DNA of 64,000 bases from Kibdelosporangium persicum (GTDB taxonomy: Bacteria > Actinomycetota > Actinomycetes > Mycobacteriales > Pseudonocardiaceae): the NCBI RefSeq assembly GCF_013280595.1, contig NZ_JAAATY010000022.1:97111-161110 (forward strand). The letters are read 5' to 3'. The notes beneath the pieces are model-generated. The model made no database searches and was not told where the DNA came from. It saw nothing but the letters and a program-made list of their open reading frames with translations. A program made the translations under genes and the position numbers. This document shows positions 23,225-26,880 of this stretch, one piece after another. Position 1 is the first letter of the stretch, and each line of letters starts with the position of its first letter.

Positions 23225-24670
23225 TCAGCGGAGGGTGATGACGACGGCGCTGCCTGCTTTCAGGTTCAGGCTGAGCGAGCCGTTGCTGACGCGGACGTTG
23301 TCCGGGCGTGCCTTGAGGTGCCCGCGACGGTCCACAGTGGCGCCTTGGATCGCGGTGGCCTCCTCGGCCAGGTTCGTGCCGGTCATGGTCAGCACTTCGG
23401 CGCCGCGGACCCGGTCACCCACCCTGATGTCCAGCTTCACCGGTGCCGCGGTGGTGTCTTCCTTCTGCACCACGGCGATGCGGGTGCGGCCGTCGTCGCC
23501 CTTCACGGCGTACGCGGTGATGTTGCGGTCGGTGGTCAGGTTCAACGGCAGGAACCGGCCCGGCCCCATCTGGCGGGCCATCCACAGGCCGTAGTAGATC
23601 GGCATGGCCTTGTAGACCTGGGCCCGCTCGTCCTCTTTGGTCGCCGCGCAGAACGGCGTGTACCGCTGGAACTTGCCGTTCCAGATCGGCTCGTTGCAGA
23701 CGCCGAGGCCGCCGTGGATGTTGATGCCGTCAACGCCGCCCTGGGCCAGTTGCAGCGCGTAGTCCATGCTCCACAGCGCCGAGGCGTACTTGTTGCTGAC
23801 GCCGTCGATGCCGCCGCTGTACGTGGAGTTGGCCTCGTCGACACGGAACGGCAGGTTCTGCGCCTTGGCCGCCGCGAGGTTGGTCTGCAGTTCCTTGAGC
23901 TGCTTGGTACGCAACTCCGGCGAGAGCAACGTCGGGATCGTCGTCGTGGCACCCGCCGGATACTGGTGCACGGTCACCATCGAGAGCTTGTCGCGCTCGT
24001 CCTTGGCGAGGTTCGCCGCCCAGGAGGACGACGTACCAGCGATGTCGGGACCCGCGATGCGGTTGTTGCCGACGGCGGCGGCACAAACGGCCCAGTCCTT
24101 GCGGTAGTCGGCGTACGCGTAACCCGTCGGCTTGTACCCGCGCATGGCCCACTGGTCGGGCTCGTTGCCGCACTCGGCCGCGGTGAGCCGGTCACCGAGG
24201 ATCCTGAACATCTCCTTGGCCTGGTCCGGGCCGAGCGCCGGGTCCCAGCGGCCGACGTTGATGCCCACCTCGGCCTGCCAGCCGGTGGCCTTGAGCAGCC
24301 GGTTGAGCCGTTCGATGTCCTCGGGGGTCAGGGTGTTGGCGACCCATTCGGGCAACGGGTTCGGTGGCTGCTGGCCGCGTGGCACCCAGAGCGTGTCGCG
24401 GTCGAGCGTGTTGCCCGCCAGGCGGATGTTGCTGTCGCGGCCCAGGGTCCTGAACATCTGGAGCACGTTGCCCTTGCTGATGTCCAGGTTGCCGATGCCC
24501 AGCTCACGGATCTCGAACGACAGGCCGACGAAGTCCTTCGGCAGTGGTCCGGCCGGGTTCGCGCCGTCGATCGTGATGCCGGCCGTCGATTCGGCCGCTG
24601 AGGCGGGCTGGCTGGCCCCGATCATCGCCACGGCGGCGGCCGCGCACACGGCCGCCCTGAACTTGCGCAT
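23225..24670 (-). CDS. Secreted family 79-like glycoside hydrolase (beta-glucuronidase/heparanase type)
   Basis: 481 residues from ATG 24670 with GAGGAG upstream; a Sec signal (MRKFRAAVCAAAAVAM...ASA) follows. A clan GH-A barrel is indicated by ECGNEPDQW near residue 194, whose NEP Glu is the likely acid/base, and VDEANSTYS near residue 282, whose Glu is the likely nucleophile. A beta domain follows. GH79 enzymes release glucuronic acid from proteoglycans or plant arabinogalactan. It converges on the chitinase gene, with R3 between them, so both hydrolases add to polymer use. Confidence 0.75.
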   Translation of the reverse strand: MRKFRAAVCAAAAVAMIGASQPASAAESTAGITIDGANPAGPLPKDFVGLSFEIRELGIGNLDISKGNVLQMFRTLGRDSNIRLAGNTLDRDTLWVPRGQQPPNPLPEWVANTLTPEDIERLNRLLKATGWQAEVGINVGRWDPALGPDQAKEMFRILGDRLTAAECGNEPDQWAMRGYKPTGYAYADYRKDWAVCAAAVGNNRIAGPDIAGTSSSWAANLAKDERDKLSMVTVHQYPAGATTTIPTLLSPELRTKQLKELQTNLAAAKAQNLPFRVDEANSTYSGGIDGVSNKYASALWSMDYALQLAQGGVDGINIHGGLGVCNEPIWNGKFQRYTPFCAATKEDERAQVYKAMPIYYGLWMARQMGPGRFLPLNLTTDRNITAYAVKGDDGRTRIAVVQKEDTTAAPVKLDIRVGDRVRGAEVLTMTGTNLAEEATAIQGATVDRRGHLKARPDNVRVSNGSLSLNLKAGSAVVITLR

Positions 24671-24780
24671 ACCGGTCTCCTCGGATGTGAAGCGTGAAAA
24701 CCGGCGGCGCGCCCGCACGGGCGGTCGAGGGGACCCTACGTGGTGGCAGACCGGGGAGGCAAGATCGCCGGAAAATGAGA

Positions 24781-24810
24781 TTGACGTTCCCGGCAGGCAT
24801 GCGCGATAGT
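24781..24810 (+). promoter_or_regulatory. Sigma-A-type promoter of the leader peptide and tRNA array
   Basis: -35 TTGACG at 24781-24786 and -10 GATAGT at 24805-24810, with an 18-base spacer. The expected start is near 24817, about 35 bases before the leader ATG. It is the best promoter match noticed in the window and points into the tRNA locus. Confidence 0.65.
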
Positions 24811-24851
24811 TTTCCCATCAAACACCGATTCGAGCAGGCGGAGGGAAAGTC

Positions 24852-24917
24852 ATGATCAGCAAGCTGGTCTGTCCGTCATCCCGGCTCGAATCGAAGCCGG
24901 AACGGCTCCCGCTATGA
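24852..24917 (+). CDS. 21-codon leader peptide of the tRNA array attenuator
   Basis: ATG 24852 with GGAGGG at 24840-24845, an ideal ribosome site, opens a 21-residue peptide ending at TGA 24915. The peptide begins MISKLVCPSS and ends KPERLPL. Of the 20 codons after ATG, ten are cognate to tRNAs of the array that follows: AAG, CTG, TGT, CTC, GAA, TCG, AAG, GAA and CTC, where CTC, GAA and AAG occur twice and one match (TGT) is by wobble. Four run consecutively (CTC GAA TCG AAG, 24885-24896). The stop lies inside the loop of the next hairpin. No independent function is expected; the role is ribosome-position sensing, as in amino-acid operon leaders. Confidence 0.65.
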   Translation: MISKLVCPSSRLESKPERLPL

Positions 24918-24978
24918 CCTGAGCGGTCATGACCAGGGAGCCGCCCGTCGGAATACCGACCAGGGCGGCTTTCTTGTT
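24881..24978 (+). promoter_or_regulatory. Attenuator-like chain of competing hairpins before the tRNA array
   Basis: Five alternating complementary segments: 1 CCGGCT (24881-24886), 2 AGCCGG (24895-24900), 3 CGGCTCCC (24903-24910), 4 GGGAGCCGCCC (24936-24946) and 5 GGGCGGCT (24963-24970). Possible pairs are 1:2, 2:3, 3:4 and 4:5. Pairing 4:5, extended by GTCGG/CCGAC inside, is followed by TTCTTGTT and looks like a terminator. Pairing 3:4, extended by ATGACC/GGTCAT, excludes it. A ribosome that reaches the leader stop would cover segment 3 and favour termination. A ribosome held at codons 12-15 would free segment 3 and favour read-through into the tRNAs. The mechanism is inferred from the layout. 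Confidence 0.6.
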
Positions 24979-24993
24979 CCAGGCCGCTCGCCA

Positions 24994-25065
24994 GGCCGAT
25001 TCGGCCAACGGTCAGGCCGCCATGCTTTCACCATGGAAACCCGGGTTCGACTCCCGGATCGGCTG
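24994..25065 (+). tRNA. tRNA-Glu (anticodon TTC), array member 1
   Basis: A full cloverleaf: acceptor GGCCGAT/ATCGGCT, D stem GGCC/GGCC, anticodon stem CCATG/CATGG with loop CTTTCAC (anticodon 25027-25029), T arm CCGGG-TTCGACT-CCCGG, discriminator G. CCA is not encoded. It reads GAA. The first gene of the array, 16 bases after the attenuator. Confidence 0.85.
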
Positions 25066-25081
25066 CGGTTCTCTGTTTCGG

Positions 25082-25153
25082 GGCGCGTTGGTCCAGCGGA
25101 ACGGACATTGGTCTCTCACACCGAAGACACGGGTTCGACTCCCGTACGCGTCA
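25082..25153 (+). tRNA. tRNA-Glu (anticodon CTC), array member 2
   Basis: Acceptor GGCGCGT/ACGCGTC with one G-T pair, D stem GTCC/GGAC, anticodon stem TTGGT/ACCGA, loop CTCTCAC (anticodon 25115-25117), T arm ACGGG-TTCGACT-CCCGT, discriminator A, which is unusual for Glu. CCA is not encoded. It reads GAG. Confidence 0.8.
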
Positions 25154-25158
25154 CCTGT

Positions 25159-25232
25159 GCGGTCCTAGCCCAACTGGGAGAGGCACCAGGCCGAGATCCT
25201 GGCCAGTGGGGGTTCGACTCCCCCGGACCGCA
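25159..25232 (+). tRNA. tRNA with Leu anticodon GAG but short variable arm, array member 3
   Basis: Acceptor GCGGTCC/GGACCGC, anticodon stem CCAGG/CCTGG, loop CCGAGAT (anticodon 25193-25195), five-base variable region, T arm GGGGG-TTCGACT-CCCCC, discriminator A, and CCA follows directly. Position 33 is C rather than the near-universal T. Bacterial tRNA-Leu normally has a long variable arm, so amino acid identity is uncertain. Confidence 0.7.
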
Positions 25233-25236
25233 CCAC

Positions 25237-25309
25237 ACCCCTGTAGCCCAACGGAAGAGGCAGCGCGCTCAGAACGCGTCCAGTGCAGGTTCGAATCCTG
25301 CCAGGGGTA
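25237..25309 (+). tRNA. tRNA with Leu anticodon CAG but short variable arm, array member 4
   Basis: Acceptor ACCCCTG/CAGGGGT, anticodon stem GCGCG/CGCGT, loop CTCAGAA (anticodon 25270-25272), variable CCAGT, T arm GCAGG-TTCGAAT-CCTGC, discriminator A. CCA is not encoded. It reads CTG if charged with Leu, but the class I body lacks the long arm expected of tRNA-Leu. Confidence 0.75.
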
Positions 25310-25316
25310 CGAGTGG

Positions 25317-25388
25317 TCCCGGTTGGTGCAACTGGCAGCACAACGGATTTTGGATCCGTTGATCCAGGTTCGAACCCTGGACCGGGAG
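25317..25388 (+). tRNA. tRNA-Gln (anticodon TTG), array member 5
   Basis: Acceptor TCCCGGT/ACCGGGA, D arm GTGC/GCAC, anticodon stem ACGGA/TCCGT, loop TTTTGGA (anticodon 25350-25352), T arm CCAGG-TTCGAAC-CCTGG, discriminator G. The body is typical of bacterial tRNA-Gln. It reads CAA, a rare codon in such a GC-rich genome. CCA is not encoded. Confidence 0.88.
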
Positions 25389-25398
25389 CGCGGGGAAA

Positions 25399-25485
25399 GG
25401 AGGATTGGCCGAGCCCGGAAAGGCAGCCGTCTCGAAAACGGTAGTCGGCGGAAACGTCGCGCAGGTTCGAATCCTGCATCCTCCG
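25399..25485 (+). tRNA. tRNA-Ser (anticodon CGA), array member 6
   Basis: Acceptor GGAGGAT/ATCCTCC, anticodon stem GCCGT/ACGGT, loop CTCGAAA (anticodon 25433-25435), a long class II variable arm of about 18 bases, T arm GCAGG-TTCGAAT-CCTGC, discriminator G as expected for Ser. It reads TCG. CCA is not encoded. Confidence 0.88.
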
Positions 25486-25534
25486 CGTCCTCGGCGCAGG
25501 TGTGTCCACGGAAAGAATGCTCCTGCGTCGCGTC

Positions 25535-25608
25535 GGGTTGCTAGCTCAATCGGTCAGAGCTGCTGACTCTTAATCAGCAGGTTCGGGGTTCGAGTCCCCG
25601 GCAACCCA
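25535..25608 (+). tRNA. tRNA-Lys (anticodon CTT), array member 7
   Basis: Acceptor GGGTTGC/GCAACCC, D arm GCTC/GAGC, anticodon stem GCTGA/TCAGC, loop CTCTTAA (anticodon 25569-25571), T arm CGGGG-TTCGAGT-CCCCG, discriminator A. It is the most canonical member of the array and reads AAG. CCA is not encoded. Confidence 0.9.
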
Positions 25609-25626
25609 CAGGTTCAGGGGACTCAC

Positions 25627-25682
25627 GTTCGCGGAAAACGCGAACGAAGTCGCCGACCTGGCGATGCCGGGCTTCGCCCGGC
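25627..25682 (+). other. Two perfect hairpins in the spacer between tRNA-Lys and tRNA-Cys
   Basis: GTTCGCG-gaaaa-CGCGAAC (25627-25645) and GCCGGGC-ttc-GCCCGGC (25666-25682). Neither is followed by a T tract. They may be RNA-processing or stability elements in the long precursor. No tRNA or gene is seen in this 82-base spacer. Confidence 0.5.
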
Positions 25683-25690
25683 AGCTGCCT

Positions 25691-25761
25691 GGCCCATGTC
25701 ACGACGGTCGTGTGATGGTCTGCAACACCATTGGTACCGGGTTCGACTCCCGGATGGGTCT
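25691..25761 (+). tRNA. tRNA-Cys (anticodon GCA), array member 8
   Basis: Acceptor GGCCCAT/ATGGGTC with one G-T pair, D stem CACG/CGTG with a small loop, anticodon stem ATGGT/ACCAT, loop CTGCAAC (anticodon 25722-25724), T arm CCGGG-TTCGACT-CCCGG, discriminator T (U73 is the Cys identity base). It reads TGC and TGT. CCA is not encoded. Last gene of the array. Confidence 0.85.
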
Positions 25762-25794
25762 CAACTGATTGACGGAAGCCGACGAGTTCAGGAG

Positions 25795-25822
25795 GAGCCC
25801 GGTGACTGGGGTGACCGGGCTC
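25795..25822 (+). terminator. Hairpin after the tRNA array
   Basis: Nine-base-pair stem GAGCCCGGT/ACCGGGCTC around a ten-base loop, 33 bases after tRNA-Cys. It has no T tract, which is common in actinobacteria. Between it and 25984 only the leader of the truncated sigma gene is seen. Confidence 0.5.
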
Positions 25823-25983
25823 CCGGAACACATCTTGCCGAGCCGGCATTTCATATCCCTGTCATCACGTTGACAGCCGTGACACCCGGCTCCTCGGTGC
25901 GCCGGGCCGGAAGCAACCTGACGTGTGGGGCATGTCGGTTTCGCGCGTCCTCGTTCGTCGTATTGGTAGACGAAGGAGGACGC

Positions 25984-26880
25984 GTGACCTACGTAGAGCT
26001 GTCCCCGGAAGACCAGCTCCGGCTGATGTACACCTGTTGTCACCCGGCGCTGTCCCTCGAAGCGCAGGTCGCGCTGACGTTGCACACGCTGGCCGGGTTG
26101 TCGGCAGCCGAGATCGCCAGGGCTTTCCTCGTCGGCGAGCAGGACATGACCGAGCGGCTGGACCTGGCACGGCGCACCGCGTGGAACGCCGAGGACGTTC
26201 CGGGGCACGACCGCACGCCGGCCGTGCTCACGGTCTTGTACCTGCTGTTCAACGAGGGCTATTCGGCGAGCCGGCGCAAGCTGGCCGACGAGGCCATCCG
26301 GCTGGCGAGGGTGATCGCCCGGTCCGATCTGCCCGAGGCGATCGGATTGCTGGCGTTGATGTTGCTGCAACACTCGCGGCGGGACGCCCGCGTGTCGGCC
26401 GACGGTGACCTGGTGACGCTGGACGCGCAGGACCGATCGCTGTGGCACCGGGAGAACATCGCCGAAGGCCTCCGGCTGCTCGACGCCGCGGACAAGCACG
26501 GCCGCCCCGGGCCGTATCAGGTCCAGGCCGCGATCGCCGCATGTCACGCGACGGCGCGCCGGGCCGAGGACACCGACTGGCCCAGGATCGCCGGGCTCTA
26601 CGGCACGCTCATGCGGTTGACGCCGTCGCCTGTGATCGAGCTGAACCGGGCGGTGGCGATCGGGATGGCCGACGGCCCGGCCGCGGGTCTCGTGCTGGTG
26701 GACGCGTTGGCCGATCGGCTCGACGGCTATCACCTGATGCACGCGACACGGGCGGATTTCCTGCGCAGGCTCGGCCGCCGCACCGAGGCCGCCGAGGCGT
26801 ACGCGCAAGCGCTTGCTTTGGCGTCCACCGCACCGGAACGGCGTTATCTGGTCCGGCGATTACGTGAGACGGGCGGCTAG
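25984..26880 (+). CDS. ECF sigma factor of the SigJ/ECF42 type, lacking its sigma-2 domain
   Basis: 298 residues from GTG 25984, with AGGAGG at ideal distance. The chain matches the middle and end of ECF42-group sigma factors: LRLMYTCCHPALSLEAQVAL, TAEIARAFLV-like sigma-4 sequence, LYLLFNEGYSAS and a C-terminal TPR-like extension rich in Ala/Arg. The usual first ~90 residues (sigma-2, which binds the -10 element) are absent, and a short segment after the sigma-4 helix is also missing. The tRNA array lies directly upstream, where the missing part would be. It is probably a broken gene; the good ribosome site means that an expressed fragment cannot be excluded. Confidence 0.7.
   Translation: MTYVELSPEDQLRLMYTCCHPALSLEAQVALTLHTLAGLSAAEIARAFLVGEQDMTERLDLARRTAWNAEDVPGHDRTPAVLTVLYLLFNEGYSASRRKLADEAIRLARVIARSDLPEAIGLLALMLLQHSRRDARVSADGDLVTLDAQDRSLWHRENIAEGLRLLDAADKHGRPGPYQVQAAIAACHATARRAEDTDWPRIAGLYGTLMRLTPSPVIELNRAVAIGMADGPAAGLVLVDALADRLDGYHLMHATRADFLRRLGRRTEAAEAYAQALALASTAPERRYLVRRLRETGG

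Follow-up and report, generated by a model that had tools for sequence, protein, structure and literature searches.

The 21-codon leader and the two mutually exclusive hairpins that precede eight spare tRNA genes in this DNA most probably form a ribosome-controlled attenuator that senses a shortage of its own product tRNAs (probability roughly 0.8). The original prediction had proposed an attenuator with leader codons tuned to its own tRNAs, and this core was supported by the leaders, by covariation, and by the codon match. Positions refer to the window, that is, the whole stretch of 64,000 nucleotides that was analyzed. L and G labels denote loci and genomes of the analysis, with G000 being the window's genome.

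Promoter, leader, and switch hairpins

The locus consists of a minus-strand glycosidase-like gene, a promoter, a GGAGG sequence, a 21-codon reading frame, two overlapping hairpins, and eight tRNA genes; the promoter, leader, hairpins, and tRNA genes lie on the plus strand. The promoter TTGACG-N18-GATAGT (24781..24810; −35 at 24781-24786, −10 at 24805-24810, spacer of 18 nt) was confirmed as predicted and is the only sigma-70-like site in 24700-25850, where 0.1 was expected in shuffles. TTGACG and ATAGTT are invariant across six aligned congeners, and sites resembling TTGAC(G) N17-18 (C/G)ATAGT with a score of at least 9 were present at 58 of 74 non-redundant loci (0.78) versus 0.16 of shuffles. 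The predicted leader with its ribosome site was also found: GGAGG (24840..24844; Shine-Dalgarno match of 5) lies 7 nt 5' of the ATG (24852-24854) of the frame MISKLVCPSSRLESKPERLPL (24852..24917), which has 21 codons and a TGA at 24915-24917. Of the neighboring frames, the glycosidase-like gene (23225-24718, minus strand) and a sigma-factor-like frame that overlaps tRNA-Cys (25696-26880) have, by eye, no apparent connection to tRNA.

Segment 3, the 5' arm of the putative antiterminator (24903..24910; helix 1 in the covariation analysis), pairs with 24936-24943. Within this pairing, an inner stem-loop (24914..24930; 24914-24919 with 24925-24930; helix 2) holds the TGA, so that the leader stop lies within 3:4 as proposed. 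Segment 4 (24936..24946) is common to the antiterminator (24936-24943) and the terminator (24939-24946). The terminator 4:5 (24939..24978) pairs 24939-24946 with 24963-24970 and has an inner stem of 24947-24951 with 24956-24960; the tail TTTCTTGTT (24970-24978), read from the sequence, follows the 4:5 pairing. Five alternately complementary segments had been proposed, and their exclusive part, 3:4 versus 4:5, stood and is conserved. Segments 1:2 (CCGGCT..AGCCGG, 24881..24900) do pair in the window as a local hairpin within the leader, but an alignment of 24881-24900 with five congeners revealed no conserved 1:2 pause hairpin; its role is doubtful, and we did not take it as obligatory. The region 24812-24985 folded at −82.7 kcal/mol (z −5.0), with 1 of 200 shuffles as low. 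A simple terminator scan of 24700-25850 did not report 4:5, in which a bulge interrupts the stem, but folding did show it.

Both 3:4 and 4:5 are kept with compensatory changes. Ten loci aligned independently showed changes on both sides at 7 of 21 pairs, versus 1.7 in shuffles. When 96 rows, seven of them weak secondary matches, were aligned by fitting to the model, 15 of 20 pairs had changed on both sides versus 6.4, with slid controls reaching at most 8. The full 4:5 stem was paired in 98.7% of cells.

The states of the switch were modeled by partition functions for the full RNA and for a snapshot before segment 5 exists. In the full RNA with a ribosome at the stop, 4:5 formed in 59/59 leaders. 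The probability of 3:4 in the full RNA exceeded 0.5 in 30/59 without a ribosome, 22/57 with a ribosome at the last own codon, and 25/57 at the middle own codon. In the snapshot, 3:4 formed in 69/70 free leaders, 65/68 with a ribosome at the middle own codon, 45/68 at the last own codon, and 16/70 at the stop; the corresponding probabilities for the window were 1.00, 1.00, 0.49, and 0.003. In these calculations the off state, in which a completed leader gives the terminator, is well supported. The full-length switch at equilibrium is bistable rather than clean in the same model, and the on state needs kinetics. Folding predicts that a ribosome finishing the leader would sit on the stop inside 3:4 and hide segment 3, leaving 4:5 to terminate transcription; prompt reading of the codons would keep the eight spare tRNA genes off. 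With a ribosome stalled earlier, segment 3 would be free, 3:4 would form before segment 5 is made, and polymerase would continue into the tRNAs.

The element family and its arrays

Leaders ahead of related arrays, which the attenuator reading called for, were found. By blast with the window leader against 100 relatives, the same leader with the same kind of array was detected in five of seven congeners (L002-L006), and shared upstream sequence places the window array at the same chromosomal position in five congeners. The 3:4:5 part matched further places, ahead of other tRNA arrays. Model R1, a covariance model, was built from 10 loci, none orthologous to the window and all first found by blast with the window. 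Among 200 host-family genomes, it matched 75 at E≤0.001 (the window's and 74 others; window E 5e-17). In 84,980 species genomes, a pattern scan yielded 62 stretches; the titles of almost all of them name Amycolatopsis, Saccharothrix, Lentzea, Kibdelosporangium, or other Pseudonocardiaceae, the family to which most of these genera are presumed to belong. One record, JOAA01000007.1 (L173), is titled Rhodococcus rhodnii NRRL B-16535 and is apparently a mislabeled congener of the window; that of Nocardia sp. NRRL S-836 (L158) may likewise be mislabeled.

The set analyzed comprised 124 elements, of which 122 are distinct; these were the stronger of the matches listed by blast and the R1 search. Leaders were assigned from three features, a start codon, a Shine-Dalgarno match, and a stop codon lying within the element, with no criterion of codon content. 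Among these stronger matches, a leader with start and ribosome site was present in 123/124, both leader and tRNAs behind it were present in 117/124, and the leader stop fell 13-16 nt into the element in 98/123. Leader length was 11-48 codons (median, 33). The tRNA content of the arrays differs widely between loci. Four elements lie in the window's genome, and a divergent array follows every one of them (that of the window; L091, with Gly, Gly, Gln, Leu, Gly; L136, with Arg; and Asn, Met).

No tRNA was called behind 7/124 of the matches listed, and at least one of these (L066) precedes a protein gene. At L066 and L191 (Amycolatopsis saalfeldensis), the attenuator has the leader MPGKAMHQARSNERASLCDELCPLCALATPGSPP and, in place of a tRNA, is followed by an HNH-like frame, which by eye resembles the HNH frames inside the second-family arrays described below; the frame of L323 matches Pfam HNH. 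L074 has a leader, and ARAGORN at default settings called no tRNA there; a tRNA-like sequence ~20-150 nt past its element has normal acceptor and T arms and an insertion of tens of bases in the anticodon region.

True cases were few in class-wide model searches, which matched 6/394 genomes at E≤1e-4 and 35/394 at E≤0.003. Of 27 class-wide loci checked, just four had tRNAs close behind: L289, which belongs to the host family, and L293, L303, and L312. L297 and L313 were rejected as attenuators and are plain terminators, since the tRNA precedes the element. In a second family (that of G085, of the same order as the host), 24 of the 101 genomes searched matched. Of the 27 places found there, L316 (identical to L312), L335 (no tRNA nearer than 534 nt), and the five that lack a tRNA (L331, L334, L337, L338, and L341) were excluded from the test of 21 array loci. 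Leaders of the 21 loci span 31-43 codons and specify 10-20 different amino acids, with all 20 present in three of them; random genomic stretches of equal length hold about 13. The G539 family has tRNAs directly behind 4/16 places (L142, L303, L344, and L347), with leaders at L142, L303, and L344 (the last by eye, with 19 amino acids).

Plasmid arrays have leaders as well. The fetched stretches of Curtobacterium pS16 and D40 and of the Arthrobacter caoxuetaonis plasmid contain 32, 33, and 35 tRNAs, and their leaders specify 20, 20, and 19 distinct amino acids, respectively. C. pusillum pCPAA3 has a homologous leader with tRNAs behind it, and the 23-tRNA array of a Mycolicibacterium plasmid has no leader by the Shine-Dalgarno rule. 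RNA ligase (ATP) genes lie inside the 32-33-tRNA Curtobacterium arrays (L355, 10147-11208; L358, 13836-14897); the L355 copy matches PF09414, and the L358 copy is assigned by annotation only. Viral contigs contained no exact match to the element pattern, and tblastn with one Curtobacterium leader found no phage leader. By annotation, the array of phage Bonray (MK112533.1, 92073-99280) has tmRNA, peptidyl-tRNA hydrolase, and HNH genes among its tRNAs. A motif like TTGAGAACTCCACAGCGGATGGCAT recurs between tRNAs in L326, L340, L342, L347, and L354; it presumably resembles the boxA/processing sites of rRNA operons and may help polymerase cross long arrays.

These plasmids bear on where the arrays came from. 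They may have arisen on plasmids or phages as cargo against host immunity that cleaves tRNA and later been domesticated with their switch, a tentative account that we would not favor at present. The 19- and 20-amino-acid leaders of the Curtobacterium and Arthrobacter plasmids and the RNA ligase in an array are consistent with it, as are phage tRNAs reported to avoid anticodon nucleases by loop changes (PMC10264068). Against it, the window array keeps one chromosomal place in five congeners and the exact pattern is absent from viral contigs. This account concerns origin and is compatible with the attenuator.

The window's eight tRNA genes lie within 0.77 kb (24994-25762): Glu(TTC), 24994..25066; Glu(CTC), 25082..25155; Leu(GAG), 25159..25235; Leu(CAG), 25237..25310; Gln(TTG), 25317..25389; Ser(CGA), 25399..25486; Lys(CTT), 25535..25609; and Cys(GCA), 25691..25762, the last having the lowest tRNA score in the array (34 bits). 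For each of the eight anticodons, the genome contains a further gene outside the array, which is therefore redundant. Array tRNAs of the family are also divergent. Compared with the housekeeping isoacceptor of one reference genome, that of the window, the anticodon loop was the same in 141/534 and the anticodon stem in 4, with a median identity of 0.63 (534 of 541 distinct tRNAs were comparable). In the housekeeping tRNAs of another genus (G040), a control drawn from the best-scoring 30 tRNA loci and thus biased toward sameness, the loop was the same in 31/32, the stem in 16/32, and the median identity was 0.96. Typical loop changes are CTACGAA in 60/67 array Arg(ACG) versus the housekeeping CTACGGA, CTCAGAA in 28/35 array Leu(CAG) versus TTCAGGT, and C at position 38 of Glu tRNAs; the loops of Ser(CGA), Pro(TGG), Thr(CGT), and Cys(GCA) are mostly as in housekeeping tRNAs.

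Two further observations concern tRNA genes of the window's genome. The housekeeping tRNA-Leu(CAA), (TAG), and (TAA) genes (L247, L248, and L249), like array Leu tRNAs, are 74-77 nt long with short variable arms, as opposed to 84-85 nt for the housekeeping Leu(CAG) and Leu(GAG) genes. L256 (G000:C39, 795-955) holds two divergent low-scoring tRNA genes, Trp(CCA) and Ala(TGC); no comparable leader was seen upstream of this pair, which is immediately preceded by an oxidoreductase-like frame.

Leader codons and the proposed signal

We measured the share of leader codons before the element that are read by the leader's own array and compared it with arrays dealt to other leaders. At 74 non-redundant loci (pruned at 0.6 similarity), the share was 0.268 for own versus 0.137 for swapped arrays (z 14.4, 0/5000), and frames +1 and +2 and the reverse strand gave z 0.6, −0.7, and 0.2. 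Addition of the 62 pattern-scan loci (61 with tRNAs) gave a pool of 178 rows, many of them shared, which was pruned to 91, 43, and 25 loci; the seven elements without a called tRNA (outside the 117) and L191 (outside the 61) were excluded. At 91 loci, own and swapped shares were 0.294 and 0.153 (z 17.1, 0/5000), and stricter pruning to 43 and 25 loci gave z 12.4 and 8.8 (each 0/5000). Two rules of leader choice gave z of about 16-17 with either, and the own leader was within the top tenth for its array at 52/91 loci. At 18 pruned loci of the second family, array amino acids were present in the leader in 118/120 cases and others in 187/240, and own versus swapped arrays gave z 3.0 (7/5000) with negative values in other frames. 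These results indicate that, beyond chance, leader codons track the anticodons of their own array over many differently composed arrays and in one frame only.

In the window, ten of the 20 leader codons after ATG had been counted as read by the array; the number is nine (AAG CTG TGT CTC GAA TCG AAG GAA CTC). This leader has no Gln codon, with CCG replacing the CAA of all five congeners. For the window array, 7 of 90 other leaders equaled or beat the window leader, so the strong statistics are those of the family and not of this locus alone. The leaders of the congeners L003 and L005 were equaled or beaten by 2/90 and 1/90.

Relative to swapped arrays, enrichment was lowest (1.27) in the two codons nearest segment 3, rose to 2.5 at codons 3-6, and was 1.6-2.3 farther upstream. 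Segment 3 would be covered by a ribosome that stalled within the two nearest codons, so this profile is the one that the attenuator model predicts. Examples of leaders are LLLLLLLL before Leu(GAG) and Leu(CAG) (L100), CCC before Cys (L131), RRCC before Arg and Cys (L038), and QQQ before Gln (L127). Such runs of one or two codons are the form expected of leaders of short arrays, and the one leader of a long array, with almost every amino acid, could act as an OR gate for "any tRNA missing."

An amino acid served by the array was present in the leader in 211/219 cases versus 669/1261 for unserved ones (Mantel-Haenszel odds ratio, 22). Trp was present in 15/15 leaders with a tRNA-Trp array versus 17/59 others, Cys in 10/10 versus 39/64, Tyr in 8/9 versus 10/65, and Lys in 6/6 versus 26/68. 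Asn was the exception (3/7 versus 28/67; 4/10 Asn arrays failed in a further count), although a rival frame in the L136/L137/L140 group, MT(K/N)RNRMH.., does contain Asn. This match, strongest at the amino-acid level, is what would be seen if the same attenuator responded to amino-acid starvation through uncharged tRNA, with the extra tRNAs helping translation recover; any uncharged tRNA stalls ribosomes alike. Among loci with the same amino acid, however, 587 synonymous codons fit the isoacceptor of the array versus 531 expected (z 6.3, 0/3000; z 5.0 and then 2.6, 18/3000, with stricter pruning). This signal comes mostly from Arg and Leu, then Gln, Val, and Ser, so that codons of these five follow the isoacceptor beyond the amino acid; among the pooled loci, Ala, Glu, Gly, Lys, and Pro do not show it, and these five are as starvation would have them. 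Starvation is also not relieved by extra tRNA, starvation for one amino acid is a poor fit to leaders with all 20, and array tRNAs carry altered anticodon loops. We consider starvation an unlikely signal.

Equally improbable, in our estimate, is a general translational-stress switch, in which antibiotics or ribosome trouble turn on a silent tRNA operon and the codon match merely sharpens the response. A ribosome-free leader forms 3:4 before segment 5 in 69/70, as such a switch would require, and a silent redundant tRNA array of Anabaena is reported to be induced by translation-targeting antibiotics (PMC10272220). General stress needs no agreement between codons and anticodons, yet swapped arrays fit half as well. 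An ordinary intrinsic terminator with a fortuitous reading frame ahead of constitutive tRNAs is very improbable: short frames come easily in GC-rich DNA, and beyond the family many weak model matches prove to be plain terminators that no tRNA follows, but here the match is frame-specific (z 14 versus about 0, on which a chance frame was rejected), the stop register is fixed (98/123 among the matches listed), and the 3:4 helix, needless for a terminator, covaries.

For the codon-sensing attenuator, loss of tRNA is a sensible signal because its product is tRNA and not an enzyme of amino-acid synthesis. We infer that the natural trigger is tRNA damage, most likely by anticodon-cleaving nucleases; cleavage by VapC/MazF-type toxins is another way in which usable tRNA could be lost. 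Four points argue for such a trigger: added tRNA cures tRNA loss and not starvation; the codons follow isoacceptors; the loops are altered as reported for phage tRNAs (PMC10264068); and a plasmid array contains an RNA ligase. Divergent array tRNAs with altered anticodon loops would then be replacements that escape the same attack. With modest confidence, we lean toward the wider view that these elements are a widespread class of actinobacterial alarms for tRNA loss, which test-read the codons of the tRNAs under their control and release nuclease-resistant replacements when any one of them fails. Short arrays would have sensors of a single tRNA, and long arrays, on chromosomes and plasmids, one universal sensor of 40-50 codons in which nearly all 20 amino acids are represented. 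If true, this would be the first case in which tRNA genes are under feedback from their own decoding.

Such control bears on how bacteria, among which toxins and phage defences that cleave tRNA are common, notice and repair the loss of particular tRNAs, and it suggests a purpose for the puzzling tRNA arrays of actinobacteria and plasmids. Each leader spells out the tRNAs it would guard, so the question is testable with one reporter per leader, and the leaders may be usable, as they stand, as biosensors that report when a chosen tRNA is lost.

Comparison with known systems

The trp, his, leu, and ilv leaders are ribosome-mediated transcription attenuators with a translated leader that contains regulatory codons. 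The present element resembles them in its short translated leader, in the choice between antiterminator and terminator, and in the proposed role of ribosome position. It differs in that it regulates tRNAs and not biosynthetic enzymes, its codons match the anticodons of its own products, one leader may cover up to all 20 amino acids, and 1:2 is unconserved. T-box riboswitches bind tRNA directly, without a leader peptide, and control a terminator. They thus sense the state of tRNA and control a terminator, as proposed here, whereas the present element uses a leader peptide. A T-box was rejected: none appeared in the window at gathering score or in 24781-24995 to E 1, and the element matched no other known RNA family in Rfam.

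The original prediction knew of no described system of this kind, and no description of leader-peptide control of tRNA arrays was found in the open-licence PubMed Central literature, a scope that leaves subscription papers and preprints mostly outside. In Anabaena PCC 7120, the trn operon is a set of 26 megaplasmid-borne tRNAs controlled by the repressor TrcR (PMC10272220). Like the window array it is redundant, and it is normally silent, turned on under translational stress, and an aid to survival. Unlike the window element, its control is by a protein, with no codon-specific sensing in the text available, from which "leader" and "attenuat" are absent (PMC10272220). The tRNA array units of mycobacteria and of their plasmids and phages, defined as at least 20 tRNAs at a density of at least 2 per kb, likewise pack divergent tRNAs closely together and include genes for HNH endonucleases; the window array, with eight tRNAs, has the density but not the number, and the available text contains neither "leader" nor "promoter" nor "terminator" (PMC5966550). 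Some phage tRNAs, which escape anticodon nucleases and have been proposed as substitutes for host tRNAs that were cleaved, are also extra tRNAs with changes in the anticodon loop (PMC10264068). The available part of that report describes no codon-sensing switch for them, whereas the array studied here is chromosomal and appears inducible (PMC10264068). The present switch would work like trp-type attenuation, and the genes it controls and the signal it would sense are new among the literature searched; if the proposed signal is right, the known uses of attenuation would extend to feedback on tRNA genes by their own decoding.
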